From positions 35,205,351 to 35,269,350 of the forward strand of contig NC_088644.1 in the NCBI RefSeq assembly GCF_964019385.1: a stretch of 64,000 nucleotides of DNA, written 5' to 3'. This document shows, piece after piece, positions 7,604 to 49,182 of this stretch; position 1 is the first letter of the stretch; every line of letters begins with the position of its first letter. Below the pieces are notes generated by a model. The model worked only from the letters and a program-made list of their open reading frames with translations. It was not told the DNA's origin and searched no databases. The position numbers and the translations under genes were made by a program. The DNA comes from Sycon ciliatum (lineage: Eukaryota; Porifera; Calcarea; Leucosolenida; Sycettidae).

Positions 7604-7611
7604 CGAATGCT

Positions 7612-8641: not shown

Positions 8642-11600
8642 CTAGAATAACCTTTGACTCAGATTTGAGCCATAAAATAAATAATACAATATTTGATGAA
8701 GTTGATTGTTCCAACTAGAAACACACGCTTCTTGCCGAACTTGACACTTGACTGACTTGACTGACTTCATGTTGATAGCCGCCGAAGTCGCAACGTCTAA
8801 GTTCGTACAATCTTTGATATTTAGAAAAACCGTCGATATCCTCAGCGCAAACGCTCCGCCTTTGGCAAAGGCCCTGATCACAATATAGTAGGTCTTGGCG
8901 GGGAGAAGAGGGTGCACAACACGCGGGTTACCATCCTCACCACCATCAGTGGCTGCAGCGATGAAACGTGTTTCAATGTCAGGACCATACAGGGTGAGTG
9001 CCAGGTCAGCTTCATCGCCAGTCGTCTAAGCAGTTAAAACAACAAACACCGGAAAATCGTCCAGAACACACCTTTAACGCCCCCCCCCCCCCCCCCCCCC
9101 CAACGGTTGCACATGCAATGCTCATTTCTCACCCGCATGAGACCCGGAAAGCGAGCTATTCCGCCTCCATCTGGGGTCGCGGGCATTCCTAGTGTGTTTA
9201 CATACATCCAAGAAACTGACTGGGACCCTGAGTGAAGGCAGTCGAGAAACCTCCTGGCCGGGCCAGCCTGTTTGACACGTGAACGCACCACAACTTTCCG
9301 CCTTGGCAGCGTACATATCCCACATGCGCATTCATGACGATATTCCGCCTTGGCAGCGTACATTTCCGCAGTCCCAAATGCATGCTGCATCCCGTCATTC
9401 AATGAGGTTGTTAAACTGTCCGGGCAGGAGTGACTGTAGGTGCAGGTCGGGCTGAACTTCTCCATATAACCATGGTTTTATCCACCCATAACCTAGTTTT
9501 CAAAGCTGACGGGACTCTTTTATCGGAATTAACTTGTACTACCTCCGCGTCATTAAAATTGTCGCTTCGCACATCGCAATGTTTGTGAGTTTCTCGTCTT
9601 AGTCAGACAGTCAGAATCGCTGTTTTCTGTGTTCGAACATTAATGCGACCCTTCCTGCGCAATGTCTACGTTTTACTGAAGCCGTGGTGGTCTCAGACTT
9701 TGTCGGAGCTCTCTTCTGCACCAAACAAATCCATTGCTCTCCTCACTATTCCGCCCCAGAGCGCGTATCGTTTTTTTCTGGTTTTAGTGCCGTCCCACAT
9801 TTTTCCCGTGTGCATATATCAAGACTGCAAGCTTGGGTATAATAATCCTGGTATCTCTCCTGAATTCTAAATTCTGAAGTTGACGATGGCAAGGACAAAG
9901 TGTTCTCAAATTCCTAAAATGCGCTACGTGTGGCGCATGTTGCTGGGAATGTAGTAGGTCTGAAAACACCAACAACATCAGTAAAGCGTTTGCCAAGGAC
10001 AGAAGTTGCGAAACTGCTTACCCTATCTCGCTGGAAGGTCGTTGCAGTGTACTTGAAAAATTGCTACTTTGCCCTAATCGCCTGCCACCTGGAGGCATGG
10101 ATCGCATGAAAACGAAGTTTCTAGACCTGAATTTGAACGCCCGTGCTGAAGGGTCTGCCTCAAACTCTGATGAAGACGTCAACCTTAGCTGCAAGTGCAG
10201 CGAAGCGGGAGGTCACAAACTAAAGCTTGGTCCGTCGACAATGCTCTGCCTCAATTTCTAGCTGATTTCTTTGCCCTTCGAGTGGACAAATTAAATTCGA
10301 AAAATCGCTCTGGGTAGGGACAATTTTAATGACGCGGAGGAAGTACCCAGAACGTCTAGAAGCACATCTCTCTCTCTTTCTCTCCCTCCCTTCCTCCCTA
10401 CCTCTCTCTCTCTCTCTCCCCCTCCCCCCCCCCCCCCCATGAAAACACACATCTATCACACACATACCTCGATTGTGTACTTTCTTTTTTCTTTTGGATC
10501 ACTTGTGAACGTGAATTTCATTTCCTCTCCAGGGCTGATGTGATCTAGAGGAAACAGCAAAGTGCAAAATAATAGGAAGTTGGGCCTTATGGCATCTCTC
10601 CGAGACTGGTGCGAATCACTCGCAAAGCTCCAGTCCTGGTTCGATGCAGTCAATCAGCATGTTGATATCGTACGTACGGAATTGAGCAAGCAGCTGATAT
10701 ACTCTATCAAGCCGCGGTGATGCAGCCAGCTGTTTTGTTCTACCATGTGCACAGGGACTGTGTGACATCATAGACTCATGAATATCAGGCACGTAGGAGC
10801 AAATTCACAAACACATTACAAAATTGTATATATAGGGACACTTCCCCCATCAATGCCTTTGTAAGATGTTCAGTTCATAGGCCAGCGAAACAAAAACTTC
10901 TTGGGACGATTTACGGCCATTGCAACGGAAAGTGCTTCTACTGCAAATATCAATGATTCACAGCTCAGCGCACTAAACCAGCATTGAGCGATGCGCAGCT
11001 AGTGCGTAAGATCTCATTCATGCTAAGCAAGGGATTTTGAAGACAGTGCCTATTGTCAAAGTTTCAAAAAATAGCAGTGCTGCTGCTGCTGCTGCTCAAT
11101 GGCTGAACCTGACCATCCTGTAGTGCTATAAACTGCAAAACAGAGAGTGCCAGAATTCTGTCTGGTTTGCCTCAAAGTCATCTGCCTTTGTGGAAAGCCC
11201 CCGTCTCGCAGTTAAAAGACGCTGCCTTGGATGCTTTGTGCCGATATAGACATGCCTTGTTGTTGACTTGACCGCATAGGGATCAGTTCAGCCAATCAAT
11301 CTGAGCTCTGGGTTAACTGGGTTATTCTTAGTGCCAGCAGTCGCCAGCAGTTGTCTCAGGAATGGAGATGAATGTTTTATTAAAAGGGAGGGTAATCTTA
11401 CTCTTTGACTTGTCAGCATCTTCAGGCAGAGTCTGCGGTTCTTCCTTTGGTGGTGCTGGCTTTGTGCCAGGAGGACCGTAGAGTTTCCTCACAACGAGTT
11501 TGTCCGTCGGTGAAAGCTCTGATATCACGGGAAAATCAGAATCCTGTGTCGGCCTCCCATCAATGCTCAATATCAACCCTTTAGGAAATCTGTGCACGAC

Positions 11601-13339
11601 AACCAACAGTTTACGTACAGAACACGGACAGAAGTCAAGAAATCAAACTACTAATAAGTTAAACAAACAATAAGAGAACTGAAAAAGTGTTTTTTTAAAC
11701 TCTTGGACAGCCTGAAACCTCTCTGTTTTACTAATATGTTATAAATATAATAATATGTTCATCCTTGCATCGAGTCAAGAACTTGGTTTTAGCACTGAAC
11801 TCCCACTACGATGCCTTTAGCCGATTGGCAAATGCTTTCACTTACTAATACTTGACTTCACCGCAATCTGTTCAACCAGACACTAAGAGCCCTGCTGATA
11901 ATAAAGAACACGATTGAAACAGCTAGTTGTTCGAAGATTCAGTACCAATATATTTAGTATGATTTCACCTCGAAGCATGAACTTAATCCAGCCTATATGG
12001 TGCTTGGTCCTGCCGCTGATCCCGAGACCCATGGTCGGGGGAGGTAGGCCCAAATCACCACCCATGGTCGGAGGAGGTAGGCCCAATTCACCAACACGCT
12101 GCGCCGGTTTCCCGCTCTATAGTCATGTCTCCCCATTGGTTCAGTCTTCCCATTCCGTTCCCCGCTGGACTGTGTATTTCAGAAAGAAAAATAAAATAAA
12201 AAAATAAATAAAGAATGGACTCGGATGGAGAGCCAAGGATAAATATATATTAAATAAAAAATGGACCAAGGAACTACATGTAAAAGTTACGCTATAATGT
12301 CCACTAACACCACCAGTTACTAAACGGCTAGTTAGTTGTAGGACGTCAGTACCGTCGGTCAGTGTCGTGAGCTGATTGTTTCGTACCTGGTGGTGTTAGT
12401 GGACATTATAATTATAGCGTAACTCGTAGTTACTTGGTCCATTTTATATTTAATATAAATTTATCCTTGGCTCTCCATCCAAGTCCATTCTTTATTTTAT
12501 TTTTTATACTGAAATACACAGTGCAGCACTTCATTTTTTTATTTACAGGTGGAATCCTGATAATTCGAATATGGCTTAATTCGAACATACCGCTTAATTA
12601 GAAGTGTTTCCAGGATTGATTTCTGTCAATTCGATTCCCACATAAAGTTTTCTGATAATTCGAACCTCGAACCGGACATGTCCGGTTAATTCGAAGTTCC
12701 ACGGATTTCACTTTCATAGAAAATGTGTGGGATTTGTGCTGATAATTCGAAGTAAGCAAAGTGTAATTCGAAGTTCACTATACACTGTAATGATCAGTTC
12801 AGTTTGCATGAGCAGGCTGTGCTGGTCAGTTCAGTATCCGTGAAATCTGTATCTAAGGTCCATAGCGCAACTCTACGTGAACATGGGAGCATTTTGACAT
12901 ACATATTGTGTTGTGGGTTCATGTTTGGATAATTAGAATGTCCGGATAATCAGAAGATTTTTCCTGGCATTTGGAGATTCGAATTATCAGGATTACACCT
13001 GAAATATAAAAAGTAAAGCATTGAGTTACATGGAGACACTTACCTATAGTGCATGATGGACTGCATGTCGTATGTAGAGCCTGTAACATCATCCGCCTTG
13101 AACGGTTCCAGGATTTGTCTCTGGATCTGCTCCTCATCCCAGTAGTTTGGTGACCCCGTGAACTCTGCCATCACCTTGGGCACGTTCCAGAGCACAATGC
13201 CCTTGATGGGTGACTGGTGTTCGTGCAGTAGACCAAGCACGTGACCAAATTCGTGGAGTACAGTTGACTTGTCAATCACAGCAAGGTTCATCGTGCACTC
13301 ATCTTTAGGAATCTGAAAACGCGCATGCCGGGGAAGGTG

Positions 13340-13388
<49 letters not shown>

Positions 13389-15635
13389 GTGTCACAGTGT
13401 GCGTAATGCATGCATCTACGTGACTGGCGCTCGACCTACTGTTGTGGACATGGAAATCCGGTCGCACGTCTAGCGGCCCCAGGGTGCTGGCCATGCAGCC
13501 GTGGATAAGCGGTACACACATGCAATTTATGCGCTGCAGCGTGATAGTCGCATCGAATCAACATGTGCCCTTCACGCAGCGTTCTGTACGCGCTGAGGGC
13601 GCCGGCCCCGGTCAATCGACCGGATTTCCATGTCCATGACAGTACGTAGCTAACTGAGCTATACGTAACGTTGCGTTCAGGCACAGCCACTAGTCTACGG
13701 TACCGGCGCTAGTGACATGTCCACTCACGCGCGATGAAAATACAGTATTTTTTGCTGGACTCGACTACGCTGTACAGACTGTCAGTGTACTGTGCTTGTG
13801 CAAGGACATCAAAGACAAAGCGTGGACAGTAGGCATGTCGCATACATGTACATCAGGGGCGTGCTCGGCCCCCCAACTAGGGGGGTGCACGGGAGCCGAG
13901 GGGAGCCCCCCCCCCCCTCGGCAATTTTCTGCAATTTGTTTGCAACCTTTCTTGAATTTTAGAGCATATTTGCATACATTACAATTGCAATTACCCAGAT
14001 TGAAAATGTTTGGGGGGTGCACGTGCCCCCCCCGTGCCCATCGCCGAGCACGCGCCTGTACATGTATGTATGTCCAAAGTGGAAACCAGTGTTTTCATCT
14101 TGGTCTTGAAGTGGGTGCTTTGGTCTTGGACTGGAGTACGAGCGGCTGTTTGTGTTGTTAGTAAAATTACTGTTCAGGTTTGTGGTTTTGAGGACAAAGG
14201 CAATGAGTTTTCAGCAGAAGACTTTGTCGGCTCTCTGGGAAAAAAACAGCGTGAAATTTCTGACGGAGAGTCGGATTCTTCCGCCACCGGCACTGCTGAA
14301 GGCAGCAGCCAAGTTGAAGTTCAAGACTGTGACGAGCCAAGTTTCACAATAGAGGACGAAACTGATGACGAGCCCGCTGCAAAAAGATTGACTTTTGGTG
14401 AAGATTATGACTTTTCCGACGTTGGCACACTCTATGATGACGAGAATTGTCGGTGGAAACTCTGTCCACGCACTGCCCCTTTATAAAACAAAGGTGGCGA
14501 TCGCCAATCAACACTGGACACCCACCAAGTCCTTCCCTTATCCAGTCAGTAGCTTATTGCAAAATGGGGGTCGGAACTTTTTGGAAACCACCTTTTTTTG
14601 ACCCGGTGCACGCGCCTGATGAAGAGTTCAAAGAGCACAAGCAAAGAAGACATCTGAGGGTGATAGCGTCCCTCATTGGGCACAACTCTACATGACTGCA
14701 GTGTTACCACTGCCCGTATTTGTCCGTATTTTTACGGAAAAAAGATGTTTTGTCCGCAGTACGGATTTCAATCGAATTATGCCGGAAAAAGCGTTTTTGT
14801 TTTCCACTCGGCGAAGTGTTTTGGTAGTCATAGAATGCTTTGGAGTTTGGACTGAAGTGTAAAAATGCAACGAAGTTTTGCTTAGCGGAGGAAGTATACA
14901 GGTGAGAAATTACAGGAAATTCAGCAAGTGCAGCCGGTGTGACAATGGACATGCATGTGCAAGTCTGTGTGTATTGTTTTTTTTCCAAATTACACTAATA
15001 ATCAGTGAGAATATTGACCTGAAAAAACGAGTACGGAAAACGCTGAAAAATTCCGCAAAATGGCACTGGGCAATACGGATGGGGGTAGAGGGCACTTGGT
15101 AACACTGTGACTGTACCTGCTTGTATGTATGCATACATGATCACGTATCATTATTGCACACGGGAACTGTGGCATGACTTACCCTCAGTGCATCCGTCCC
15201 CACACGGGAGTACGAGCCCTCCTTTTCCTTGAAAGACACTCGCACTTCCGAGTCGCTTCGATCTGTCACTTCAACGAATGAAATACTACAATGTTGGCTC
15301 CATTCGCTGGCAATGGGTAGCACTCGATCACGTTTCGGATGATCTTCAGTAAAGTACACTTTTATAGCCTCGGACTTCTTTTTCGCCCAGAGGTTCTTTG
15401 TATCCTTGTTGGCCAATGCAAACTGGGGTTTCACCACATTCGTACTGTCCTGACTCGGTCGCCTTTCAGCTTGGGGCTCAGTCCCACCCGATGCGGCCAC
15501 TTCGTCCTGTTCGTCCGACTCTTGCTTTGAAGAGTTAGCGGCACATTCAGCTTTGCGCTGTTCAACATCTTGTAGCTGATCGCGTTCATCGCCAACCTCG
15601 TCGCTAGGTAGAAACACTGGATTGCGGCACCACAT
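8642..15635 (-). CDS. M12A-like zinc metalloprotease with C-terminal PPC-like domain (unit 1)
   Basis: Spliced minus-strand gene. Exons: A 15183-15635 (open frame extends to a possible acceptor at 15710), B 13044-13312, C 11402-11589, D 10468-10544, E 8642-9025. All junctions are GT-AG (donors GTAAGT, GTAAGT, GTAAGA, GTATGT) and phases agree. From the first ATG in exon A the protein is 456 residues. Exon A gives an acidic Q/E/S-rich N-terminal part then KVYFTED and GSYSRVGTDAL. Exon B holds the zinc site HEFGHVLGLLHEHQSP and the Met-turn SIMHY. Exon C opens RFPKGLILSIDG. Exons D-E (SPGEEMKFTFTSD, ALTLYGPDIETRFIAAATDG, AKTYYIVIRAFAKGG) resemble a bacterial pre-peptidase C-terminal (PPC) domain. 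Likely secreted and peptide-cleaving by family, but I see no clear signal peptide, so an upstream exon may be missing. The LINE lies upstream on the same strand. Confidence 0.85.
9080..9101. repeat. Poly-C tract in intron D-E
   Basis: 22 C here; 16 C in unit 2 (26727-26742), 20 in unit 3 (41947-41966), 19 in unit 4 (59241-59259). Length calls of such runs are prone to sequencing error. Confidence 0.8.
9539..10343. mobile_element. Tc1/mariner-like non-autonomous element with TA duplication (unit 1)
   Basis: 805 bp. Inverted ends CTTCCTCCGCGTCATTAAAA (one mismatch on the left here, perfect in unit 2) run about 24 bp and are flanked by TA at 9537-9538 and 10344-10345. The ends resemble Stowaway-type Tc1/mariner MITEs. 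It fills most of intron D-E. A plus-strand frame inside (to 10261) has some protein-like composition but no recognised transposase motif. Confidence 0.7.
10371..10438. repeat. CT microsatellite followed by poly-C
   Basis: Lies about 30 bp downstream of the exon D donor on the minus strand. The pure CT run is short in units 1, 3 (43236-43303) and 4 (61101-61169) and greatly expanded in unit 2 (28013-28109). Confidence 0.8.
12165..12526. mobile_element. Foldback element with ~150-bp arms (unit 1, intron B-C)
   Basis: Arms 12165-12316 and 12387-12526 are imperfect reverse complements (for example GGATGGAGAGCCAAGGATAA and its complement, and TGTCCACTAACACCACC). A ~70-bp loop separates them. No coding sequence. 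It would form a long hairpin in the protease pre-mRNA. Confidence 0.75.
12546..13001. mobile_element. Tigger/pogo-like MITE (unit 1, intron B-C)
   Basis: 456 bp, with ends CAGGTGGAATCCTGATAATT and its near-perfect complement, and several internal TAATTCGAA motifs as in pogo-type elements. A clean TA duplication is not visible. It ends 42 bp from the exon B donor. Confidence 0.65.
13343..13380. repeat. GA microsatellite upstream of the exon B acceptor
   Basis: (GA)19 here, about (GA)31 in unit 2 and (GA)30 in unit 3. On the gene strand it is a CT tract starting about 31 nt upstream of the acceptor of the catalytic exon. Confidence 0.9.
13437..13644. mobile_element. Short MITE with GGACATGGAAATCCGGTCG ends (unit 1)
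   Basis: 208 bp. Perfect 19-bp inverted repeats GGACATGGAAATCCGGTCG lie near both ends, extended outward to TACTGT with two mismatches. No target duplication established; superfamily unknown. Confidence 0.55.
13854..14058. mobile_element. hAT-like MITE, CAGGGGCGTGCTCGGC ends (unit 1)
   Basis: 205 bp. CAGGGGCGTGCTCGGC at the left and its complement with one mismatch at the right; the CAGGGGCGTG start is common in hAT elements. Flanks are TACATGTA-rich, so the 8-bp duplication cannot be fixed. Confidence 0.6.
14163..14486 (+). CDS. Acidic open frame inside intron A-B, function unknown (unit 1)
   Basis: A plus-strand frame, opposite to the protease, encodes an acidic segment (GFEDKGNEFSAEDFVGSLGK, EISDGESDSSATGT, EPSFTIEDETDDEPAAKR) ending at a TAA at 14484. 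Composition is protein-like and resembles the acidic N-terminal region of some transposases, but I recognise no family. No start is evident: the frame opens upstream inside the hAT-like MITE. Unit 3 keeps the frame; unit 2 breaks it with 2 extra bases. It is probably a fragment of a mobile-element gene or an exon of one. Confidence 0.3.
   Translation, partial: KITVQVCGFEDKGNEFSAEDFVGSLGKKQREISDGESDSSATGTAEGSSQVEVQDCDEPSFTIEDETDDEPAAKRLTFGEDYDFSDVGTLYDDENCRWKLCPRTAPL
14699..15107. mobile_element. 409-bp MITE with CAGTGTTACCA ends (unit 1)
   Basis: Inverted ends CAGTGTTACCA / TGGTAACACTG. Flanked by TGACTG on both sides; unit 2 has the single unoccupied TGACTG at 32384-32389. That makes a 6-bp target duplication with a preserved empty site. 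Interior is rich in TACGGA-type motifs and non-coding. Confidence 0.85.
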
Positions 15636-15710
15636 GACCGCTTTCTTCACAGCACTCAACACGACTGACGTTGTATCCGTGCTATCGAAATGGAGCAGCA
15701 GTAAACTTAT

Positions 15711-20424: not shown

Positions 20425-20558
20425 CTAACGCACCATTCAACAGCTTGGAATCCTGACCGCCACTAGTGACTAGGCACTATTCAGCCTGGTCTACACCACA
20501 CTGTGGCACACAGCTATGAAGTGACATTTTCTGTCCCAGGGGAAACTCGCGGAAAAAA

Positions 20559-20713: not shown

Positions 20714-20717
20714 TTAA

Positions 20718-21684: not shown

Positions 21685-21688
21685 TTAA

Positions 21689-24612: not shown

Positions 24613-24742
24613 TTAAGGACGCGAGCACTATTGAACCATTATCAGTTGTATGATGATTGCCTATTTAGGCGTGAAGCTATTGTAACAACGGTGATGCGTG
24701 CTGCTCTGTGACTAGTGTGCACTGGGTGATGCGTCGAATGCT

Positions 24743-26288: not shown

Positions 26289-28042
26289 CTAGAATAACCT
26301 TTGACTCAGATTTGAGCCATAAAATAAATAATACAATATTTGATGAAGTTGATTGTTCCAACTAGAAACACACGCTTCTTGCCGAACTTGACACTTGACT
26401 GACTTGACTGACTTCATGACGATAACCGCCGAAGTCGCAACTTCTAAGTTCGTACAATCTTTGATATTTAGACAAACCGGCGATATCCTCAGCGCAAACG
26501 CTCCGCCTTTGGCAAAGGCCCTGATCACAATATAGTAGGTCTTGGCGGGTTGAAGATGGTCCACAACACGCGGGTTACCATCCTCACCACCATCAGTGGC
26601 TGCAGCGATGAAACGTGTTTCAATGTCAGGACCAGACAGGGTGAGTGCCAGGTCAGGTTCATCGCCAGTCGTCTAAGCAGTTAAAACAACAAACACCGGA
26701 AAATCGTCCAGAACACACATTTAACGCCCCCCCCCCCCCCCCAACGGTTGCACATGCAATGCTCATTTCTCACCCGCATGAGACCCGGAAAGCGAGCTAT
26801 TCCGCCTCCATCTGGGGTCGCGGGCATTCCTAGTGTGTTAACATACATCCAAGAAGCTGACTGGGACCCTGAGTGAAGGCAGTCGAGAAACCTCCTGGCC
26901 GGGCCAGCCTGTTTGACACGTGAACGCACCACAACTTTCCGCCTTGGCAGCGTACATATCCCACATGCGCATTCATGACGATATTCCGCCTTGGCAGCGT
27001 ACATTTCCGCAGTCCCAAATGCATGCTGCATCCCGTCATTCAATGAGGTTGTTAAACTGCCCGGGCAGGAGTGACTGTAGGTGCAGGTCGGGCTGAACTT
27101 CTCCATATAACCATGGTTTTATCCACCCATAACCTAGTTTTCAAAGCTGACGGGACTCTTTTATCGGAATTAACTTGTACTTCCTCCGCGTCATTAAAAT
27201 TGTCGCTTCGCACATCGCAATTTTTGTGAGTTTCTCGTCTTAGTCAGACAGTCAGAATCGCTGTTTTCTGTGTTCGAACATTAATGCGACCCTTCCTGCG
27301 CAATGTCTACGTCGTTTTACTGAAGCCGTGGTGGTCTCAGACTTTGTCGGAGCTCTCTTCTGCACCAAACAAATCCATTGCTCTCCTCACTATTCCGCCC
27401 CAGAGCGCGTATCGTTTTTTTCTGGTTTTAGTGCCGTCCCACATTTTTCCCGTGTGCATATATCAAGACTGCAAGCTTGGGTATAATAATCCTGGTATCT
27501 CTCCTGAATTCTAAATTCTGAAGTTGACGATGGCAAGGACAAAGTGTTCTCAAATTCCTAAAATGCGCTACGTGTGGCGCATGTTGCTGGGAATGTAGTA
27601 GGTCTGAAAACACCAACAACATCAGTAAAGCGTTTGCCAAGGACAGAAGTTGCGAAACTGCTTACCCTATCTCGCTGGAAGGTCGTTGCAGTGTACTTGA
27701 AAAATTGCTACTTTGCCCTAATCGCCTGCCACCTGGAGGCATGGATCGCATGAAAACGAAGTTTCTAGACCTGAATTTGAACGCCCGTGCTGAAGGGTCT
27801 GCCTCAAACTCTGATGAAGACGTCAACCTTAGCTGCAAGTGCAGCGAAGCGGGAGGTCACAAACTAAAGCTTGGTCCGTCGACAATGCTCTGCCTCAATT
27901 TCTAGCTGATTTCTTTGCCCTTCGAGTGGACAAATTAAATTCGAAAAATCGCTCTGGGTAGGGACAATTTTAATGACGCGGAGGAAGTACCCAGAACGTC
28001 TAGAAGCACATCTCTCTCTCTTTCTCTCCCTCCCTTCCTCCC

Positions 28043-28095
<53 letters not shown>

Positions 28096-31005
28096 CCCCC
28101 CCCCCCCCATGAAAACACACATCTATCACACACATACCTCGATTGTGTACTTTCTTTTTTCTTTTGGATCACTTGTGAACGTGAATTTCATTTCCTCTCC
28201 AGGGCTGATGTGATCTAGAGGAAACAGCAAAGTGCAAAATAATAGGAAGTTGGGCCTTATGGCATCTCTCCGAGACTGGTGCGAATCACTCGCAAAGCTC
28301 CAGTCCTGGTTCGATGCAGTCAATCAGCATGTTGATATCGTACGTACGGAATTGAGCAAGCAGCTGATATACTCTATCAAGCCGCGGTGATGCAGCCAGC
28401 TGTTTTGTTCTACCATGTGCACAGGGACTGTGTGACATCATAGACTCATGAATATCAGGCACGTAGGAGCAAATTCACAAACACATTACAAAATTGTATA
28501 TATAGGGACACTTCCCCCATCAATGCCTTTGTAAGATGTTCAGTTCATAGGCCAGCGAAACAAAAACTTCTTGGGACGATTTACGGCCATTGCAACGGAA
28601 AGTGCTTCTACTGCAAATATCAATGATTCACAGCTCAGCGCACTAAACCAGCATTGAGCGATGCGCAGCTAGTGCGTAAGATCTCATTCATGCTAAGCAA
28701 GGGATTTTGAAGACAGTGCCTATTGTCAAAGTTTCAAAAAATAGCAGTGCTGCTGCTGCTGCTCAATGGCTGAACCTGACCATCCTGTAGTGCTATAAAC
28801 TGCAAAACAGAGAGTGCCAGAATTCTGTCTGGTTTGCCTCAAAGTCATCTGCCTTTGTGGAAAGCCCCCGTCTCGCAGTTAAAAGACGCTGCCTTGGATG
28901 CTTTGTGCCGATATAGACATGCCTTGTTGTTGACTTGACCGCATAGGGATCAGTTCAGCCAATCAATCTGAGCTCTGGGTTAACTGGGTTATTCTTAGTG
29001 CCAGCAGTCGCCAGCAGTTGTCTCAGGAATGGAGATGAATGTTTTATTAAAGGGGAGGGTAATCTTACTCTTTGACTTGTCAGCATCTTCAGGCAGAGTC
29101 TGCGGTTCTTCCTTTGGTGGTGCTGGCTTTGTGCCAGGAGGACCGTAGAGTTTCCCAACAACGAGTTTGTCCGTCGGTGAAAGCTCTGATATCACGGGAA
29201 AATCAGAATCCAGTGTCGGCCTCCCATCAATGCTCAATATCAACCCTTTAGCAAAGCTGTGCACGACAACCAACAGTTTACGTACAGAACACGGACAGAA
29301 GTCAAGAAATCAAACTACTAATAAGTTAAACAAACAATAAGAGAACTGAAAAAGTGTTTTTTTAAACTCTTGGACAGCCTGAAACCTCTCTGTTTTACTA
29401 ATATGTTATAAATATAATAATATGTTCATCCTTGCATCGAGTCAAGAACTTGGTTTTAGCACTGGACTCCCACTACGATGCCTTTAGCCGATTGGCAAAT
29501 GCTTTCACTTACTAATACTTGACTTCACCGCAATCTGTTCAACCAGACACTAAGAGCCCTGCTGATAATAAAGAACACGATTGAAACAGCTAGTTGTTCG
29601 AAGATTCAGTACCAATATATTTAGTATGATTTCACCTCGAAGCATGAACTTAATCCAGCCTATATGGTGCTTGGTCCTGCCGCTGATCCCGAGACCCATG
29701 GTCGGGGGAGGTAGGCCCAAATCACCACCCATGGTCGGAGGAGGTAGGCCCAATTCACCAACACGCTGCGCCGGTTTCCCGCTCTATAGTCATGTCTCCC
29801 CATTGGTTCAGTCTTCCCATTCCGTTCCCCGCTGGACTGTGTATTTCAGAAAGAAAAATAAAAAAATAAATAAATAAAGAATGGACTCGGATGGAGAGCC
29901 AAGGATAAATATATATTAAATATAAAATGGACCAAGGAACTACATGTAAAAGTTACGCTATAATGTCCACTAACACCACCAGTTACTAAACGGCTAGTTA
30001 GTTGTAGGACGTCAGTACCGTCGGTCAGTGTCGTGAGCTGATTGTTTCGTACCTGGTGGTGTTAGTGGACATTATAATTATAGCGTAACTCGTAGTTACT
30101 TGGTCCATTTTATATTTAATATAAATTTATCCTTGGCTCTCCATCCAAGTCCATTCTTTATTTTATTTTTTATACTGAAATACACAGTGCAGCACTTCAT
30201 TTTTTTATTTACAGGTGGAATCCTGATAATTCGAATATGGCTTAATTCGAACATACCGCTTAATTAGAAGTGTTTCCAGGATTGATTTCTGTCAATTCGA
30301 TTCCCACATAAAGTTTTCTGATAATTCGAACCTCGAACCGGACATGTCCGGTTAATTCGAAGTTCCACGGATTTCACTTTCATAGAAAATGTGTGGGATT
30401 TGTGCTGATAATTCGAAGTAAGCAAAGTGTAATTCGAAGTTCACTATACACTGTAATGATCAGTTCAGTTTGCATGAGCAGGCTGTGCTGGTCAGTTCAG
30501 TATCCGTGAAATCTGTATCTAAGGTCCATAGCGCAACTCTACGTGAACATGGGAGCATTTTGACATACATATTGTGTTGTGGGTTCATGTTTGGATAATT
30601 AGAATGTCCGGATAATCAGAAGATTTTTCCTGGCATTTGGAGATTCGAATTATCAGGATTACACCTGAAATATAAAAAGTAAAGCATTGAGTTACATGGA
30701 GACACTTACCTATAGTGCATGATGGACTGCATGTCGTATGTAGAGCCTGTAACATCATCCGCCTTGAACGGTTCCAGGATTTGTCTCTGGATCTGCTCCT
30801 CATCCCAGTAGTTTGGTGACCCCGTGAACTCTGCCATCACCTTGGGCACGTTCCAGAGCACAATGCCCTTGATGGGTGACTGGTGTTCGTGCAGTAGACC
30901 AAGCACGTGACCAAATTCGTGGAGTACAGTTGACTTGTCAATCACAGCAAGGTTCATCGTGCACTCATCTTTAGGAATCTGAAAACGCGCATGCCGGGGA
31001 AGGTG

Positions 31006-31078
<73 letters not shown>

Positions 31079-32918
31079 GTGTCACAGTGTGCGTAATGCA
31101 TGCATCTACGTGACTGGCGCTCGACCTACTGTTGTGGACATGGAAATCCGGTCGCACGTCTAGCGGCCCCAGGGTGCTGGCCATGCAGCCGTGGATAAGC
31201 GGTACACACATGCAATTTATGCGCTGCAGCGTGATAGTCGCATCGAATCAACATGTGCCCTTCACGCAGCGTTCTGTACGCGCTGAGGGCGCCGGCCCCG
31301 GTCAATCGACCGGATTTCCATGTCCATGACAGTACGTAGCTAACTGAGCTATACGTAACGTTGCGTTCAGGCACAGCCACTAGTCTACGGTACCGGCGCT
31401 AGTGACATGTCCACTCACGCGCGATGAAAATACAGTATTTTTTGCTGGACTCGACTACGCTGTACAGACTGTCAGTGTACTGTGCTTGTGCAAGGACATC
31501 AAAGACAAAGCGTGGACAGTAGGCATGTCGCATACATGTACATCAGGGGCGTGCTCGGCCCCCCAACTAGGGGGGTGCACGGGAGCCGAGGGGAGCCCCC
31601 CCCCCCCCTCGGCAATTTTCTGCAATTTGTTTGCAACCTTTCTTGAATTTTAGAGCATATTTGCATACATTACAATTGCAATTACCCAGATTGAAAATGT
31701 TTGGGGGGTGCACGTGCCCCCCCGTGCCCATCGCCGAGCACGCGCCTGTACATGTATGTATGTCCAAAGTGGAAACCAGTGTTTTCATCTTGGTCTTGAA
31801 GTGGGTGCTTTGGTCTTGGACTGGAGTACGAGCGGCTGTTTGTGTTGTTAGTAAAATTACTGTTCAGGTTTGTGGTTTTGAGGACAAAGGCAATGAGTTT
31901 TCAGCAGAAGACTTTGTCCGCTCTCTGGGGAAAAAAAACAGCGTGAAATTTCTGACGGAGAGTCGGATTCTTCCGCCACCGGCACTGCTGAAGGCAGCAG
32001 CCAAGTTGAAGTTCAAGACTGTGACGAGCCAAGTTTCACAATAGAGGACGAAACTGATGACGAGCCCGCTGCAAAAAGATTGACTTTTGGTGAAGATTAT
32101 GACTTTTCCGACGTTGGCACACTCTATGATGACGAGAATTGTCGGTGGAAACTCTGTCCACGCACTGCCCCTTTATAAAACAAAGGTGGCGATCGCCAAT
32201 CAACACTGGACACCCACCAAGTCCTTCCCTTATCCAGTCAGTAGCTTATTGCAAAATGGGGGTCGGAACCTTTTGGAAACCACCTTTTTTTGACTCGGTG
32301 CACGCGCCTGATGAAGAGTTCAAAGAGCACAAGCAAAGAAGACATCTGAGGGTGATAGCGTCCCTCATTGGGCACAACTCTACATGACTGTACCTACTTG
32401 TATGTATGCATACATGATCACGTATCATTATTGCACACGGGAACTGTGGCATGACTTACCGGCAGTGCATCCGTCCCCACATGGGAGTACGAGCCCTCCT
32501 TTTCCTTGAAAGACACTCGCACTTCCGAGTCGCTTCGATCTGTCACTTCAACGAATGAAATACTACAATGTTGGCTCCATTCGCTGGCAATGGGTAGCAC
32601 TTGATCACGTTTCGGATGATCTTCAGTAAAGTACACTTTTATAGCCTCGGACTTCTTTTTCTCCCAGAGCTTCTTTCTATCCTTGTTGGTCAATGCAAAC
32701 TGGGGTTTCACCACATTTGTACTGTCCTGACTCGGTCGCCTTTCAGCTTGGGGCTCAGTCCCACCCGATGCGGCCACTTCGTCCTGTTCGTCCGACTCTT
32801 GCTTTGAAGAGTTAGCGGCACATTCAGCTTTGCGCTGTTCAACATCTTGTAGCTGATCGCAGGCGCGTTCATCGCCAACCTCGTCGCCAGGTAGAAACAC
32901 TTGATTGCGGCACCACAT
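26289..32918 (-). CDS. M12A-like zinc metalloprotease, diverged paralogue (unit 2)
   Basis: Same five-exon structure: A 32460-32918 (open to 32993), B 30710-30978, C 29069-29256, D 28138-28214, E 26289-26672, all splice sites and phases intact. The predicted protein is 458 residues because exon A has an in-frame 6-bp insertion (DERACDQ versus DERDQ). Exon B with HEFGHVLGLLHEHQSP and SIMHY is identical to unit 1, and so is exon D. Exons A, C and E carry many replacements, for example RFPKGL to SFAKGL, VVRKLYG to VVGKLYG, NLWAKKK to KLWEKKK, and changes around HPLLPAKTYY. No stop or frameshift is seen, so this looks like a functional, differentiated copy and not a decaying one. Confidence 0.85.
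27180..27987. mobile_element. Tc1/mariner-like non-autonomous element (unit 2)
   Basis: Copy of 9539-10343 with perfect inverted ends and flanking TA; it has 3 extra bases inside. Confidence 0.7.
28013..28109. repeat. Expanded CT microsatellite plus poly-C (unit 2)
   Basis: The CT run is about 40 bases longer than in units 1, 3 and 4, just downstream of exon D on the gene strand. Confidence 0.85.
29832..30192. mobile_element. Foldback element (unit 2)
   Basis: Copy of 12165-12526, with a small indel in the A/T-rich arm. Confidence 0.75.
30212..30667. mobile_element. Tigger/pogo-like MITE (unit 2)
   Basis: Copy of 12546-13001, same length. Confidence 0.65.
31009..31070. repeat. GA microsatellite, about 31 units (unit 2)
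   Basis: Expanded relative to unit 1; same position upstream of the exon B acceptor. Confidence 0.9.
31127..31334. mobile_element. Short MITE, GGACATGGAAATCCGGTCG ends (unit 2)
   Basis: Copy of 13437-13644. Confidence 0.55.
31544..31748. mobile_element. hAT-like MITE, CAGGGGCGTGCTCGGC ends (unit 2)
   Basis: Copy of 13854-14058. Confidence 0.6.
31853..32178 (+). pseudogene. Acidic intronic open frame, frameshifted (unit 2)
   Basis: Copy of 14163-14486. The run GGGAAAAAAA has one more G and one more A here, which shifts the frame before the acidic part, so the long frame seen in units 1 and 3 is lost. Confidence 0.35.
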
Positions 32919-33561
32919 GACCGCTTTCTTCACAGCACTCAACACGACTGACGTTGTATCCGTGCTATCGAAATGGAGCAGCAGTAAACTTATCTAGTAA
33001 AAATGATTACTTGCTTTTACTATCAGTATCTGAAAGAGAAAAAAACTGTTTCTACAGTGATCATGTACATGACTAATTGAACTACATTATTTTTACAAAC
33101 GCCAAAGGGCCAAAGGCAGGGCCGGGAGAGATTGAAGAAAATCCGAAAATGAGTCACCTTGTCACCACAAGGCGCTAATTCTAGTCTGTACTGACTGTAG
33201 ACTACTAGTACTACTACCAAGAGTCCATAACGGCAAGAGTATGCAACTGTGATTATGGGTGCATGCGTACGCGTGGCGCGCTGCCTAGGCGCCTTCATTA
33301 CCATGATTACGTAACTAAGTTACTTGCCTTCATCACGCTCTGAAAGCATGCATTCAAACTCTCAATTTCTCGCACGAGCCCATCCGTTTTTGCTCGATTC
33401 GTTCCAGTACCTACACAATCTCTGAATTCTGATGCGTCTAGCACATCTCAATTCTAAAATCCACCGGGAATCCACAGGAAAACTACACAGACTACCCTGT
33501 TATTATTCATTGCAAAAGAACACCGAAAGGCCAGACCGCATGGTGAAGACAAATGTCTAGA

Positions 33562-41508: not shown

Positions 41509-44500
41509 CTAGAATAACCTTTGACTCAGATTTGAGCCATAAAATAAATAATACAATATTTGATGAAGTTGATTGTTCCAACTAGAAACACACGCTTCTT
41601 GCCGAACTTGACACTTGACTGACTTGACTGACTTCATGTTGATAGCCGCCGAAGTCGCAACGTCTAAGTTCGTACAATCTTTGATATTTAGAAAAACCGT
41701 CGATATCCTCAGCGCAAACGCTCCGCCTTTGGCAAAGGCCCTGATCACAATATAGTAGGTCTTGGCGGGGAGAAGAGGGTGCACAACACGCGGGTTACCA
41801 TCCTCACCACCATCAGTGGCTGCAGCGATGAAACGTGTTTCAATGTCAGGACCATACAGGGTGAGTGCCAGGTCAGCTTCATCGCCAGTCGTCTAAGCAG
41901 TTAAAACAACAAACACCGGAAAATCGTCCAGAACACACCTTTAACGCCCCCCCCCCCCCCCCCCCCAACGGTTGCACATGCAATGCTCATTTCTCACCCG
42001 CATGAGACCCGGAAAGCGAGCTATTCCGCCTCCATCTGGGGTCGCGGGCATTCCTAGTGTGTTTACATACATCCAAGAAACTGACTGGGACCCTGAGTGA
42101 AGGCAGTCGAGAAACCTCCTGGCCGGGCCAGCCTGTTTGACACGTGAACGCACCACAACTTTCCGCCTTGGCAGCGTACATATCCCACATGCGCATTCAT
42201 GACGATATTCCGCCTTGGCAGCGTACATTTCCGCAGTCCCAAATGCATGCTGCATCCCGTCATTCAATGAGGTTGTTAAACTGTCCGGGCAGGAGTGACT
42301 GTAGGTGCAGGTCGGGCTGAACTTCTCCATATAACCATGGTTTTATCCACCCATAACCTAGTTTTCAAAGCTGACGGGACTCTTTTATCGGAATTAACTT
42401 GTACTACCTCCGCGTCATTAAAATTGTCGCTTCGCACATCGCAATGTTTGTGAGTTTCTCGTCTTAGTCAGACAGTCAGAATCGCTGTTTTCTGTGTTCG
42501 AACATTAATGCGACCCTTCCTGCGCAATGTCTACGTTTTACTGAAGCCGTGGTGGTCTCAGACTTTGTCGGAGCTCTCTTCTGCACCAAACAAATCCATT
42601 GCTCTCCTCACTATTCCGCCCCAGAGCGCGTATCGTTTTTTTCTGGTTTTAGTGCCGTCCCACATTTTTCCCGTGTGCATATATCAAGACTGCAAGCTTG
42701 GGTATAATAATCCTGGTATCTCTCCTGAATTCTAAATTCTGAAGTTGACGATGGCAAGGACAAAGTGTTCTCAAATTCCTAAAATGCGCTACGTGTGGCG
42801 CATGTTGCTGGGAATGTAGTAGGTCTGAAAACACCAACAACATCAGTAAAGCGTTTGCCAAGGACAGAAGTTGCGAAACTGCTTACCCTATCTCGCTGGA
42901 AGGTCGTTGCAGTGTACTTGAAAAATTGCTACTTTGCCCTAATCGCCTGCCACCTGGAGGCATGGATCGCATGAAAACGAAGTTTCTAGACCTGAATTTG
43001 AACGCCCGTGCTGAAGGGTCTGCCTCAAACTCTGATGAAGACGTCAACCTTAGCTGCAAGTGCAGCGAAGCGGGAGGTCACAAACTAAAGCTTGGTCCGT
43101 CGACAATGCTCTGCCTCAATTTCTAGCTGATTTCTTTGCCCTTCGAGTGGACAAATTAAATTCGAAAAATCGCTCTGGGTAGGGACAATTTTAATGACGC
43201 GGAGGAAGTACCCAGAACGTCTAGAAGCACATCTCTCTCTCTTTCTCTCCCTCCCTTCCTCCCTACCTCTCTCTCTCTCTCTCCCCCTCCCCCCCCCCCC
43301 CCCATGAAAACACACATCTATCACACACATACCTCGATTGTGTACTTTCTTTTTTCTTTTGGATCACTTGTGAACGTGAATTTCATTTCCTCTCCAGGGC
43401 TGATGTGATCTAGAGGAAACAGCAAAGTGCAAAATAATAGGAAGTTGGGCCTTATGGCATCTCTCCGAGACTGGTGCGAATCACTCGCAAAGCTCCAGTC
43501 CTGGTTCGATGCAGTCAATCAGCATGTTGATATCGTACGTACGGAATTGAGCAAGCAGCTGATATACTCTATCAAGCCGCGGTGATGCAGCCAGCTGTTT
43601 TGTTCTACCATGTGCACAGGGACTGTGTGACATCATAGACTCATGAATATCAGGCACGTAGGAGCAAATTCACAAACACATTACAAAATTGTATATATAG
43701 GGACACTTCCCCCATCAATGCCTTTGTAAGATGTTCAGTTCATAGGCCAGCGAAACAAAAACTTCTTGGGACGATTTACGGCCATTGCAACGGAAAGTGC
43801 TTCTACTGCAAATATCAATGATTCACAGCTCAGCGCACTAAACCAGCATTGAGCGATGCGCAGCTAGTGCGTAAGATCTCATTCATGCTAAGCAAGGGAT
43901 TTTGAAGACAGTGCCTATTGTCAAAGTTTCAAAAAATAGCAGTGCTGCTGCTGCTGCTGCTCAATGGCTGAACCTGACCATCCTGTAGTGCTATAAACTG
44001 CAAAACAGAGAGTGCCAGAATTCTGTCTGGTTTGCCTCAAAGTCATCTGCCTTTGTGGAAAGCCCCCGTCTCGCAGTTAAAAGACGCTGCCTTGGATGCT
44101 TTGTGCCGATATAGACATGCCTTGTTGTTGACTTGACCGCATAGGGATCAGTTCAGCCAATCAATCTGAGCTCTGGGTTAACTGGGTTATTCTTAGTGCC
44201 AGCAGTCGCCAGCAGTTGTCTCAGGAATGGAGATGAATGTTTTATTAAAAGGGAGGGTAATCTTACTCTTTGACTTGTCAGCATCTTCAGGCAGAGTCTG
44301 CGGTTCTTCCTTTGGTGGTGCTGGCTTTGTGCCAGGAGGACCGTAGAGTTTCCTCACAACGAGTTTGTCCGTCGGTGAAAGCTCTGATATCACGGGAAAA
44401 TCAGAATCCTGTGTCGGCCTCCCATCAATGCTCAATATCAACCCTTTAGGAAATCTGTGCACGACAACCAACAGTTTACGTACAGAACACGGACAGAAGT

Positions 44501-46204
44501 CAAGAAATCAAACTACTAATAAGTTAAACAAACAATAAGAGAACTGAAAAAGTGTTTTTTTAAACTCTTGGACAGCCTGAAACCTCTCTGTTTTACTAAT
44601 ATGTTATAAATATAATAATATGTTCATCCTTGCATCGAGTCAAGAACTTGGTTTTAGCACTGAACTCCCACTACGATGCCTTTAGCCGATTGGCAAATGC
44701 TTTCACTTACTAATACTTGACTTCACCGCAATCTGTTCAACCAGACACTAAGAGCCCTGCTGATAATAAAGAACACGATTGAAACAGCTAGTTGTTCGAA
44801 GATTCAGTACCAATATATTTAGTATGATTTCACCTCGAAGCATGAACTTAATCCAGCCTATATGGTGCTTGGTCCTGCCGCTGATCCCGAGACCCATGGT
44901 CGGGGGAGGTAGGCCCAAATCACCACCCATGGTCGGAGGAGGTAGGCCCAATTCACCAACACGCTGCGCCGGTTTCCCGCTCTATAGTCATGTCTCCCCA
45001 TTGGTTCAGTCTTCCCATTCCGTTCCCCGCTGGACTGTGTATTTCAGAAAGAAAAATAAAATAAAAAAATAAATAAAGAATGGACTCGGATGGAGAGCCA
45101 AGGATAAATATATATTAAATAAAAAATGGACCAAGGAACTACATGTAAAAGTTACGCTATAATGTCCACTAACACCACCAGTTACTAAACGGCTAGTTAG
45201 TTGTAGGACGTCAGTACCGTCGGTCAGTGTCGTGAGCTGATTGTTTCGTACCTGGTGGTGTTAGTGGACATTATAATTATAGCGTAACTCGTAGTTACTT
45301 GGTCCATTTTATATTTAATATAAATTTATCCTTGGCTCTCCATCCAAGTCCATTCTTTATTTTATTTTTTATACTGAAATACACAGTGCAGCACTTCATT
45401 TTTTTATTTACAGGTGGAATCCTGATAATTCGAATATGGCTTAATTCGAACATACCGCTTAATTAGAAGTGTTTCCAGGATTGATTTCTGTCAATTCGAT
45501 TCCCACATAAAGTTTTCTGATAATTCGAACCTCGAACCGGACATGTCCGGTTAATTCGAAGTTCCACGGATTTCACTTTCATAGAAAATGTGTGGGATTT
45601 GTGCTGATAATTCGAAGTAAGCAAAGTGTAATTCGAAGTTCACTATACACTGTAATGATCAGTTCAGTTTGCATGAGCAGGCTGTGCTGGTCAGTTCAGT
45701 ATCCGTGAAATCTGTATCTAAGGTCCATAGCGCAACTCTACGTGAACATGGGAGCATTTTGACATACATATTGTGTTGTGGGTTCATGTTTGGATAATTA
45801 GAATGTCCGGATAATCAGAAGATTTTTCCTGGCATTTGGAGATTCGAATTATCAGGATTACACCTGAAATATAAAAAGTAAAGCATTGAGTTACATGGAG
45901 ACACTTACCTATAGTGCATGATGGACTGCATGTCGTATGTAGAGCCTGTAACATCATCCGCCTTGAACGGTTCCAGGATTTGTCTCTGGATCTGCTCCTC
46001 ATCCCAGTAGTTTGGTGACCCCGTGAACTCTGCCATCACCTTGGGCACGTTCCAGAGCACAATGCCCTTGATGGGTGACTGGTGTTCGTGCAGTAGACCA
46101 AGCACGTGACCAAATTCGTGGAGTACAGTTGACTTGTCAATCACAGCAAGGTTCATCGTGCACTCATCTTTAGGAATCTGAAAACGCGCATGCCGGGGAA
46201 GGTG

Positions 46205-46275
<71 letters not shown>

Positions 46276-48523
46276 GTGTCACAGTGTGCGTAATGCATGC
46301 ATCTACGTGACTGGCGCTCGACCTACTGTTGTGGACATGGAAATCCGGTCGCACGTCTAGCGGCCCCAGGGTGCTGGCCATGCAGCCGTGGATAAGCGGT
46401 ACACACATGCAATTTATGCGCTGCAGCGTGATAGTCGCATCGAATCAACATGTGCCCTTCACGCAGCGTTCTGTACGCGCTGAGGGCGCCGGCCCCGGTC
46501 AATCGACCGGATTTCCATGTCCATGACAGTACGTAGCTAACTGAGCTATACGTAACGTTGCGTTCAGGCACAGCCACTAGTCTACGGTACCGGCGCTAGT
46601 GACATGTCCACTCACGCGCGATGAAAATACAGTATTTTTTGCTGGACTCGACTACGCTGTACAGACTGTCAGTGTACTGTGCTTGTGCAAGGACATCAAA
46701 GACAAAGCGTGGACAGTAGGCATGTCGCATACATGTACATCAGGGGCGTGCTCGGCCCCCCAACTAGGGGGGTGCACGGGAGCCGAGGGGAGCCCCCCCC
46801 CCCCCTCGGCAATTTTCTGCAATTTGTTTGCAACCTTTCTTGAATTTTAGAGCATATTTGCATACATTACAATTGCAATTACCCAGATTGAAAATGTTTG
46901 GGGGGTGCACGTGCCCCCCCCGTGCCCATCGCCGAGCACGCGCCTGTACATGTATGTATGTCCAAAGTGGAAACCAGTGTTTTCATCTTGGTCTTGAAGT
47001 GGGTGCTTTGGTCTTGGACTGGAGTACGAGCGGCTGTTTGTGTTGTTAGTAAAATTACTGTTCAGGTTTGTGGTTTTGAGGACAAAGGCAATGAGTTTTC
47101 AGCAGAAGACTTTGTCGGCTCTCTGGGAAAAAAACAGCGTGAAATTTCTGACGGAGAGTCGGATTCTTCCGCCACCGGCACTGCTGAAGGCAGCAGCCAA
47201 GTTGAAGTTCAAGACTGTGACGAGCCAAGTTTCACAATAGAGGACGAAACTGATGACGAGCCCGCTGCAAAAAGATTGACTTTTGGTGAAGATTATGACT
47301 TTTCCGACGTTGGCACACTCTATGATGACGAGAATTGTCGGTGGAAACTCTGTCCACGCACTGCCCCTTTATAAAACAAAGGTGGCGATCGCCAATCAAC
47401 ACTGGACACCCACCAAGTCCTTCCCTTATCCAGTCAGTGGCTTATTGCAAAATGGGGGTCGGAACTTTTTGGAAACCACCTTTTTTTGACCCGGTGCACG
47501 CGCCTGATGAAGAGTTCAAAGAGCACAAGCAAAGAAGACATCTGAGGGTGATAGCGTCCCTCATTGGGCACAACTCTACATGACTGCAGTGTTACCACTG
47601 CCCGTATTTGTCCGTATTTTTACGGAAAAAAGATGTTTTGTCCGCAGTACGGATTTCAATCGAATTATGCCGGAAAAAGCGTTTTTGTTTTCCACTCGGC
47701 GAAGTGTTTTGGTAGTCATAGAATGCTTTGGAGTTTGGACTGAAGTGTAAAAATGCAACGAAGTTTTGCTTAGCGGAGGAAGTATACAGGTGAGAAATTA
47801 CAGGAAATTCAGCAAGTGCAGCCGGTGTGACAATGGACATGCATGTGCAAGTCTGTGTGTATTGTTTTTTTTCCAAATTACACTAATAATCAGTGAGAAT
47901 ATTGACCTGAAAAAACGAGTACGGAAAACGCTGAAAAATTCCGCAAAATGGCACTGGGCAATACGGATGGGGGTAGAGGGCACTTGGTAACACTGTGACT
48001 GTACCTGCTTGTATGTATGCATACATGATCACGTATCATTATTGCACACGGGAACTGTGGCATGACTTACCCTCAGTGCATCCGTCCCCACACGGGAGTA
48101 CGAGCCCTCCTTTTCCTTGAAAGACACTCGCACTTCCGAGTCGCTTCGATCTGTCACTTCAACGAATGAAATACTACAATGTTGGCTCCATTCGCTGGCA
48201 ATGGGTAGCACTCGATCACGTTTCGGATGATCTTCAGTAAAGTACACTTTTATAGCCTCGGACTTCTTTTTCGCCCAGAGGTTCTTTGTATCCTTGTTGG
48301 CCAATGCAAACTGGGGTTTCACCACATTCGTACTGTCCTGACTCGGTCGCCTTTCAGCTTGGGGCTCAGTCCCACCCGATGCGGCCACTTCGTCCTGTTC
48401 GTCCGACTCTTGCTTTGAAGAGTTAGCGGCACATTCAGCTTTGCGCTGTTCAACATCTTGTAGCTGATCGCGTTCATCGCCAACCTCGTCGCTAGGTAGA
48501 AACACTGGATTGCGGCACCACAT
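41509..48523 (-). CDS. M12A-like zinc metalloprotease (unit 3)
   Basis: Exons A 48071-48523 (open to 48598), B 45909-46177, C 44267-44454, D 43333-43409, E 41509-41892. The predicted protein matches the unit 1 protein wherever I compared it, with all splice sites, HEFGHVLGLLHEHQSP and SIMHY kept. Same intron content as unit 1, including the 409-bp MITE in intron A-B and a longer GA tract before exon B. Confidence 0.85.
42404..43208. mobile_element. Tc1/mariner-like non-autonomous element (unit 3)
   Basis: Copy of 9539-10343, same length. Confidence 0.7.
45030..45391. mobile_element. Foldback element (unit 3)
   Basis: Copy of 12165-12526. Confidence 0.75.
45411..45866. mobile_element. Tigger/pogo-like MITE (unit 3)
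   Basis: Copy of 12546-13001. Confidence 0.65.
46208..46267. repeat. GA microsatellite, about 30 units (unit 3)
   Basis: Upstream of the exon B acceptor, close in length to unit 2 and longer than unit 1. Confidence 0.9.
46324..46531. mobile_element. Short MITE, GGACATGGAAATCCGGTCG ends (unit 3)
   Basis: Copy of 13437-13644. Confidence 0.55.
46741..46946. mobile_element. hAT-like MITE, CAGGGGCGTGCTCGGC ends (unit 3)
   Basis: Copy of 13854-14058. Confidence 0.6.
47051..47374 (+). CDS. Acidic open frame in intron A-B (unit 3)
   Basis: Same frame and stop as 14163-14486; no recognised family and no certain start. Confidence 0.3.
   Translation, partial: KITVQVCGFEDKGNEFSAEDFVGSLGKKQREISDGESDSSATGTAEGSSQVEVQDCDEPSFTIEDETDDEPAAKRLTFGEDYDFSDVGTLYDDENCRWKLCPRTAPL
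47587..47995. mobile_element. 409-bp MITE with CAGTGTTACCA ends (unit 3)
   Basis: Copy of 14699-15107, same TGACTG flanks. Confidence 0.85.
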
Positions 48524-49182
48524 GACCGCTTTCTTCACAGCACTCAACACGACTGACGTTGTATCCGTGCTATCGAAATGGAGCAGCAGTAAACTTATCT
48601 AGGTCGCTAATACTATGGGTAAAATGAATACTTGCTTTTACTATCAGTATCTGAAAGAGAAAAAAACTGTTTCTACAGTGATCATGTACATGACTAATTG
48701 AACTACATTATTTTTACAAACGCCAAAGGGCCAAAGGCAGGGCCGGGAGAGATTGAAGAAAATCCGAAAATGAGTCACCTTGTCACCACAAGGCGCTAAT
48801 TCTAGTCTGTACTGACTGTAGACTACTAGTACTACTACCAAGAGTCCATAACGGCAAGAGTATGCAACTGTGATTATGGGTGCATGCGTACGCGTGGCGC
48901 GCTGCCTAGGCGCCTTCATTACCATGATTACGTAACTAAGTTACTTGCCTTCATCACGCTCTGAAAGCATGCATTCAAACTCTCAATTTCTCGCACGAGC
49001 CCATCCGTTTTTGCTCGATTCGTTCCAGTACCTACACAATCTCTGAATTCTGATGCGTCTAGCACATCTCAATTCTAAAATCCACCGGGAATCCACAGGA
49101 AAACTACACAGACTACCCTGTTATTATTCATTGCAAAAGAACACCGAAAGGCCAGACCGCATGGTGAAGACAAATGTCTAGA

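Follow-up and report, generated by a model that had tools for sequence, protein, structure and literature searches.

Candidate selection-maintained divergence peaks under gene conversion in a 12-copy myroilysin-like protease array of the sponge Sycon ciliatum

Accelerated evolution of exons in snake venom phospholipase A2 genes was reportedly described by Nakashima in 1993 and 1995. Accelerated exon evolution is also described for the three-finger toxins of snake venom, according to passages of PMC2474615. In duplicated genes under gene conversion, peaks of divergence maintained by selection are described for exon 5 of the human red/green opsins and for RHCE/RHD (Innan 2003; Teshima and Innan 2008; passages of a review, PMC3924837), and an excerpt of PMC3728101 reports islands of divergence under conversion between the GOT1 paralogues of the copepod Tigriopus. 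Here, we compare with these systems an array of protease genes in the calcareous sponge Sycon ciliatum, part of which lies in a stretch of 64,000 nucleotides (the window: contig NC_088644.1, positions 35,205,351 to 35,269,350 of the forward strand). In PubMed Central we found nothing pairing "Sycon ciliatum" with "astacin", and papers retrieved there for S. ciliatum, genome, and metalloprotease together leave this protease family unmentioned in their titles and abstract openings. An earlier inspection of the letters alone (the sequence-only reading) had noticed that two neighboring gene copies differ almost exclusively in their exons. We lean, at somewhat better than an even chance, towards the view that this array of 12 myroilysin-like protease genes holds divergence peaks that selection maintains under gene conversion.

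The window consists of four tandem units, unit 1 (u1) at 6982-21717, unit 2 at 24592-37751, unit 3 at 39812-54580, and unit 4 from 57118 to the window end; each carries a single minus-strand gene of five exons. The gene of unit 1 spans 8642..15710 (exons A 15183-15710, B 13044-13312, C 11402-11589, D 10468-10544, and E 8642-9025), with a likely start codon at 15635, which corresponds to the first methionine of P0001 (a database model) and of the S. ciliatum protein P0002; its spliced frame of 481 codons is open, with GT-AG introns in consistent phase. The gene of unit 2 spans 26289..32993 (exons A 32460-32993, B 30710-30978, C 29069-29256, D 28138-28214, and E 26289-26672), and its exon B, which matches Pfam PF01400, carries the zinc site HEFGHVLGLLHEH. 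Units 1 to 3 were aligned with MAFFT and substitutions classified by NG86. Between units 1 and 2, the exons differ at 28 of 1446 positions (A 11/528, B 0/269, C 5/188, D 0/77, E 12/384) and by a 6-bp in-frame indel in exon A, an insertion in unit 2 relative to unit 1, which are the very counts made by eye; two mismatches immediately upstream of exon A, at a 15-bp indel with ragged edges, were kept out of the exon count. The introns differ at 16 of 5197 aligned bases, four of them at microsatellite or A/T-run edges, against the earlier estimate of about 13 in 5.6 kb. Exon and intron divergence are far from equal (Fisher p = 2.4e-9), and nonsynonymous sites taken by themselves (25/1125, p = 8e-10) have changed at about seven times the intron rate. 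The strong skew towards amino-acid change also stood, with slightly different proportions from the 26 nonsynonymous to 2 synonymous first counted: NG86 gives 25 to 3 (dN 0.0226, dS 0.0094, dN/dS 2.4), and 23 of 25 changed codons alter the amino acid, the silent ones being T90T and V299V.

The changes are also unevenly placed. That none of the 28 falls in exons B and D has a probability of 4.7e-4 under even placement, and the catalytic exon is indeed unchanged between the two units, as the sequence-only reading had it. Adjacent substitutions form four pairs, where random scatter across exons A, C, and E would give 0.69 (P = 0.005), and some coding differences sit at exon edges (the second- and third-last bases of A and the first base of C). 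The flanks, including a long interspersed nuclear element (LINE), differ at only 4 of 6418 positions, few as had been noted, and introns exceed them about fivefold (16/5214, p = 0.0024).

To place the two units among their relatives, exon B was searched over the 538-Mb assembly, in which the window is part of a 50.55-Mb contig (C2). Twelve exon B copies lie between 35,218,394 and 35,403,008 on this contig, and all 12 genes were retrieved, giving the further units that the sequence-only reading had proposed to recover. They fall into two types, in the order 1, 2, 1, 1, 1, 2, 1, 1, 2, 1, 1, followed by a diverged, older edge copy, L024. Type 1 has eight members (L013, L015, L016, L017, L019, L020, L022, L023), and type 2 has three (L014, L018, L021). 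L018 repeats the coding differences of unit 2, and L021 does likewise except in the exon E tail. Type-2 copies are very close to each other: L014 and L018 show no substitution in the aligned region and two small indels, and L021 has three substitutions against the other two along with small indels, including a 4-bp deletion in the exon E tail. Within type 1, a single exon A site, 15400, sets L022 and L023 apart from unit 1. Eleven of the 12 copies have the same exon B, and the frame is open in all 12 up to the tail (six were translated, and the other six are exon-identical to translated ones). Because the exon states of each type recur in several copies, eight and three, sequencing error is very unlikely, and the exon differences are genuine and arose early enough to be copied since. 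A block of 57 mismatches between L023 and unit 1 upstream of exon A (u1 15861-16009), perhaps an insertion or an alignment effect, was excluded from the count of type-1 differences.

In the window, units 1, 3, and 4 are of type 1 and unit 2 is of type 2. The unit 3 gene (minus strand, 41509..48598; exons A 48071-48598, B 45909-46177, C 44267-44454, D 43333-43409, E 41509-41892) is identical to that of unit 1 in all five exons. The unit 4 gene (minus strand, 58803..64000) is truncated by the window end, which cuts exon B; exons E, D, C, and the in-window part of B are identical to unit 1, and the full exons were read in its complete copy, L016. Insertions of transposons at u1 14699-15107 and about 17699-18914 are common to units 1 and 3 and missing from unit 2, which places units 1 and 3 nearer to each other than to unit 2; another insertion, at 60115-60685, is found only in unit 4 among the four. 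All three elements have inverted-repeat ends, with near-clean empty sites in the units that lack them. Two further open frames lie within introns: a 147-codon stop-free frame late in intron 4 (9034-9477, minus strand), which in unit 1 ends before exon E and which recurs in all four window units with slightly different lengths, and an acidic frame within intron 1 (14004-14486, plus strand), interrupted in unit 2, which we take to be perhaps the N-terminus of a transposase.

Noncoding differences between units 1 and 2 are gathered around the changed exons. Once the four intron sites at microsatellite or A/T-run edges are set aside, 12 intron differences are left. Ten of these fall in the 1991 of 5214 intron bases that are no more than 600 bp from exon A, C, or E (p = 0.0018), and the 2400 bases equally close to B or D contain none (p = 7e-4). 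With all 16 intron differences kept, 10 are near A, C, or E (p = 0.068) and 2 near B or D (p = 0.0096), and over the whole unit 12 of all 20 noncoding differences are near A, C, or E (p = 0.0039). We therefore delimited three islands on the minus strand of unit 2: island E at 26419..27222 (u1 8772-9581), with 12 coding and 6 intron 4 substitutions; island C at 29052..29465 (u1 11385-11798), with 5 coding and 2 intron substitutions; and island A at 32396..33050 (u1 15119-15783), with 11 coding and 3 noncoding substitutions (the two ragged-edge mismatches excluded) and the 6-bp indel. Three intron 1 differences fall outside, at 14578 and 14603 (about 600 bp from A) and at 14229. Pooled over the islands, with the exon E tail counted as coding, nonsynonymous change (25/743) exceeds silent and noncoding change (14/1146) by a ratio of 2.75 (confidence interval 1.43-5.30, p = 0.0024). 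This ratio is 3.08 (1.54-6.17) without three sites that are not fixed between the types, and 2.61 (p = 0.005) when adjacent doublets are counted once. Island E is the main carrier of the excess (11.5/189 vs. 6.5/621, p = 9e-5), and in islands A and C the replacement excess is not individually significant. Since most of the intron sequence looks homogenized, the claim that exons evolve ten times faster than introns does not give a selection ratio, and the within-island ratio takes its place.

Exchange of sequence between copies is evident in the family, as the sequence-only reading had suspected of gene conversion. Against type 2, L024 has no difference in 1436 aligned bases of intron 4 or in 420 bases downstream and 3 in 380 bases of exon E, whereas across the upstream segments the divergence ranges from 2.1% (intron 3) to 12.5% (exon A), with 2.7% for exon C, 3.9% for exon D, 4.9% for intron 2, and 7.4% for exon B, and intron 1 is not alignable. 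Identity at the 3' end together with divergence upstream indicates that the 3' stretch was exchanged with a type-2 unit, apparently by either conversion or unequal crossing-over, which the pattern does not separate. In the exon E tail, L021 and L024 have two substitutions (two of the three exon E substitutions of L024) and the 4-bp deletion in common, which is another trace of exchange between type 2 and the edge copy. States at u1 11798 likewise cross the types, with L023 (type 1) showing the state of L014 and L018 and L021 (type 2) showing the other.

Two outgroups help to assign the changes to branches. One is L024; the other is L037 on contig C4, a broken gene fragment at about 4400-5212 comprising an exon C with an in-frame stop and part of intron 3. 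At 11385 and at each of the five exon C differences, both outgroups have the base of type 2, which places these changes on the type-1 branch; the two types show 5 differences in the 188 bases of exon C vs. 1 in 605 adjacent intron bases (p = 0.0035). In exon A, L024 assigns six changes to the type-1 branch and four to the type-2 branch, with one unresolved; the polarity of sites 15400 and 15413 hinges on the alignment beside an indel in L024, and site 15400 is not fixed in type 1, as L022 and L023 retain the older base. Exchange of its 3' end makes L024 a weak outgroup for exon E. Here P0002, a EukProt protein with the prefix "scpid", which marks S. ciliatum proteins according to a passage of PMC6526912, is useful. 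P0002 matches L024 exactly over exons A, C, and D, has one residue changed in B, and departs from it at 5 of the first 66 exon E residues (Y/S, H/D, L/Q, N/K, T/P). This match supports the predicted splicing and start methionine of the gene, and the different exon E suggests that exon E variants segregate in S. ciliatum. In residue, P0002 agrees with type 1 at codons 360, 367, 392, 395, and 419 and with type 2 at 393, so most exon E changes seem to be on the type-2 branch. Changes thus fell on both branches.

To explain these patterns, we suggest that recent block duplication and gene conversion would keep the units near-identical, while selection would favor different amino acids in exons A, C, and E of the two types. 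Conversion events erasing the differences in these three exons would be selected against, and divergence would persist as peaks around them, with homogenization of the flanks, of intron sequence farther away, and of exons B (the zinc exon) and D. Under this model, selection would hold the peaks in place, and the two types may differ in substrate or partner binding.

Several observations weigh against this explanation, and some of them favor the alternative that the exons are near-neutral and the introns homogenized, in which constraint would be weak outside the zinc exon and old divergence would have survived patchily by chance. The L024 comparison is the strongest cause for caution: over exons A-D, dN/dS is 1.25 for type 1 and 1.33 for type 2, not significantly above 1 (p 0.44 and 0.29), which leaves some room for relaxed constraint combined with intron homogenization, contrary to the earlier assertion that the pattern cannot come from relaxed constraint. 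Single exons A-D span 0.8-1.6, none significant (exon A 1.50 and 1.64), with exon B below 1 (0.86 and 0.80), and position-matched ratios of nonsynonymous to silent change are 1.63 (0.93-2.84) for exon A and 1.42 (0.62-3.29) for C and D; a pooled L024 ratio of 3.02 was not used, as it is confounded by position along the gene. The exon-over-intron contrast is absent from some comparisons, exon C being no more diverged than introns between L024 and type 2 (5/188 vs. 17/605), and is present between L037 and type 2 (24/188 vs. 31/604, p = 8e-4), where the copy is broken and its exon end poorly alignable. Within the coding sequence itself, nonsynonymous vs. synonymous change is weakly separated (p = 0.02-0.10, by model and transition bias). 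There is one independent divergence of the two types, which the array multiplies, and the recent differences within type 1, small in number, do not clearly favor exons, with 15400 in exon A and 15783, 14551, 11866, and 11798 outside. The island borders were drawn after seeing the data, each island running out to its outermost differences; this raises the silent rate and makes the island ratio conservative.

The tail of exon E, after codon 420, bears on the same question. If it is taken as noncoding, the island ratio falls to 1.79 (0.95-3.35, p = 0.067). A homologue search with the C-terminal tail found only its own cluster, the tail is modeled with low confidence, and in L021 and L024 it has lost 4 bp. 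A six-frame scan of the window and of L001-L024 for the C-terminus of P0002 (RFATYRP and three similar strings) gave no match, so the predicted 3' end of the gene is provisional. Against near-neutral exons stand the frame that is open up to the tail in every copy, with a deletion beyond it in L021 and L024 only, the coincidence of the three patches with exons A, C, and E, and the excess of exon E far above its adjacent intron (p = 9e-5). On balance, we regard near-neutral exons as an unlikely account, if one to be taken seriously.

A second alternative is that the units are young duplicates under strong positive selection only, with introns alike because little time has passed and gene conversion playing no part. 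The sevenfold rate at nonsynonymous sites would fit. However, introns exceed flanks, intron differences are clustered near A, C, and E, and exchange between copies is seen in the family, which makes this alternative improbable. A third, in our view equally improbable, is import by conversion from a diverged paralogue or allele, the exon changes being inherited at an ordinary dN/dS. In its favor, L024 and type 2 have a common 3' end, and P0002 equals L024 in A, C, and D yet has a different exon E, as if exon E variants circulate. Against it, an assembly-wide search with P0002 gave at least 61 exon matches, 60 in the array and one an exon C fragment on contig 4; both outgroups carry the type-2 states of exon C, and no donor of the type-1 states, such as the distant paralogue considered earlier, is among the matches listed. 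The replacement rate in the islands also exceeds the silent rate. Searches for a donor in GTDB genome contigs and IMG/VR gave pattern matches (24 and 5) with no relative confirmed. Finally, an assembly or sequencing artefact, or exchange of exons templated by RNA (cDNA), for which coding differences right at exon edges might speak, can be practically dismissed, as three copies share the type-2 coding differences and eight are of type 1, and a spliced template could not bring the linked differences in adjoining introns (6 in 556 bp next to exon E).

The encoded protein belongs to astacin family M12A (PF01400, 45.8 bits vs. a cut-off of 22.5). M12A proteins are defined by the zinc motif HEXXHXXGXXH and a Met-turn, and the spliced sponge protein contains HEFGHVLGLLH and SIMHY. 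It most resembles the bacterial myroilysin (PDB 5zjk; catalytic domain sequence E = 4e-30, Foldseek TM 0.83 normalized to the target). Many homologues have a PPC domain annotated C-terminal of the catalytic domain; in the sponge protein, the Pfam PPC model scores below its cut-off (13.3 vs. 25.9 bits), and we term the domain PPC-like. Two other database hits were set aside, namely the NCBIfam model NF050131 "beta-glucuronidase AbsR1", the top model yet far under its cut-off (182 vs. 650 bits), and PDB matches of the exon D and E piece, which are designed repeat or binder proteins (best E 0.0019) judged spurious. Astacins of M12A are generally secreted, with a signal peptide and propeptide. The N-termini of P0001 and P0002 (MWCR and MRCH) show no hydrophobic leader by eye, and an upstream exon is possible. 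In a structure model of mean pLDDT 74.5, 14 of the 23 replaced residues are outside helices and strands vs. 245 of 456 residues overall, with no clear enrichment. The likeness to accelerated exon evolution drawn by the sequence-only reading thus keeps its exon-centered divergence and its replacement excess in islands, and its analogy to secreted toxins and protein surfaces gains no support here.

More speculatively, the array could be a diversification device for a leaderless bacterial-type protease. Two or more types would co-exist, their putative substrate-facing exons driven apart by an antagonist (a microbe, symbiont, prey protein, or self/non-self partner), and conversion would spread and re-mix variants, the exon E of P0002 being another circulating one; we consider this idea doubtful. 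Returning to selection-maintained peaks under conversion, the array may offer a very young natural case, with flanks 0.06% diverged, in which conversion and selection could be opposing each other exon by exon, in a sponge. If true, the sites that resist homogenization mark residues that matter.

Other features of the window include mobile elements and repeats. Between units 1 and 2, at 22131-24017 on the plus strand, an open frame of 628 codons encodes a Mutator-like transposase (PF20700, E 2e-67; 22 members in its 90% cluster), and broken frames at 54666-56403 resemble a second one, with the motif TWMRRG in common. Overlapping broken frames at 2586-4822 on the minus strand resemble a tyrosine-recombinase retroelement, and a tandem repeat with units of about 163 bp, 85-86% alike, occupies 5436-6088.

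Among the described systems, the array is most readily compared with opsin exon 5 and RHCE/RHD, with which, as far as passages of PMC3924837 describe them, it has in common low divergence of introns and flanks, a peak over particular exons, and exchange between copies in the family. The sponge array differs in having three separate peak exons, 11 near-identical copies, and two types whose functional difference is putative. In the Tigriopus GOT1 paralogues, by contrast, Ka/Ks is low and the islands lie inside an exon, according to the excerpt of PMC3728101, whereas in the sponge replacement exceeds silent change. Compared with venom multigene families, in so far as the source passages cover them, the introns are likewise more similar than the exons, amino-acid changes are in excess, and the catalytic core is kept. 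However, the sponge protease lacks an evident signal peptide, any sign of a toxin role, and segment switching, and its replacement excess shrinks once the islands serve as reference; a "secreted toxin-like" label is unsupported. With myroilysin, the sponge protein shares the catalytic domain, and it departs from it in a gene of five exons, a eukaryotic array, an added PPC-like domain, and no evident leader.

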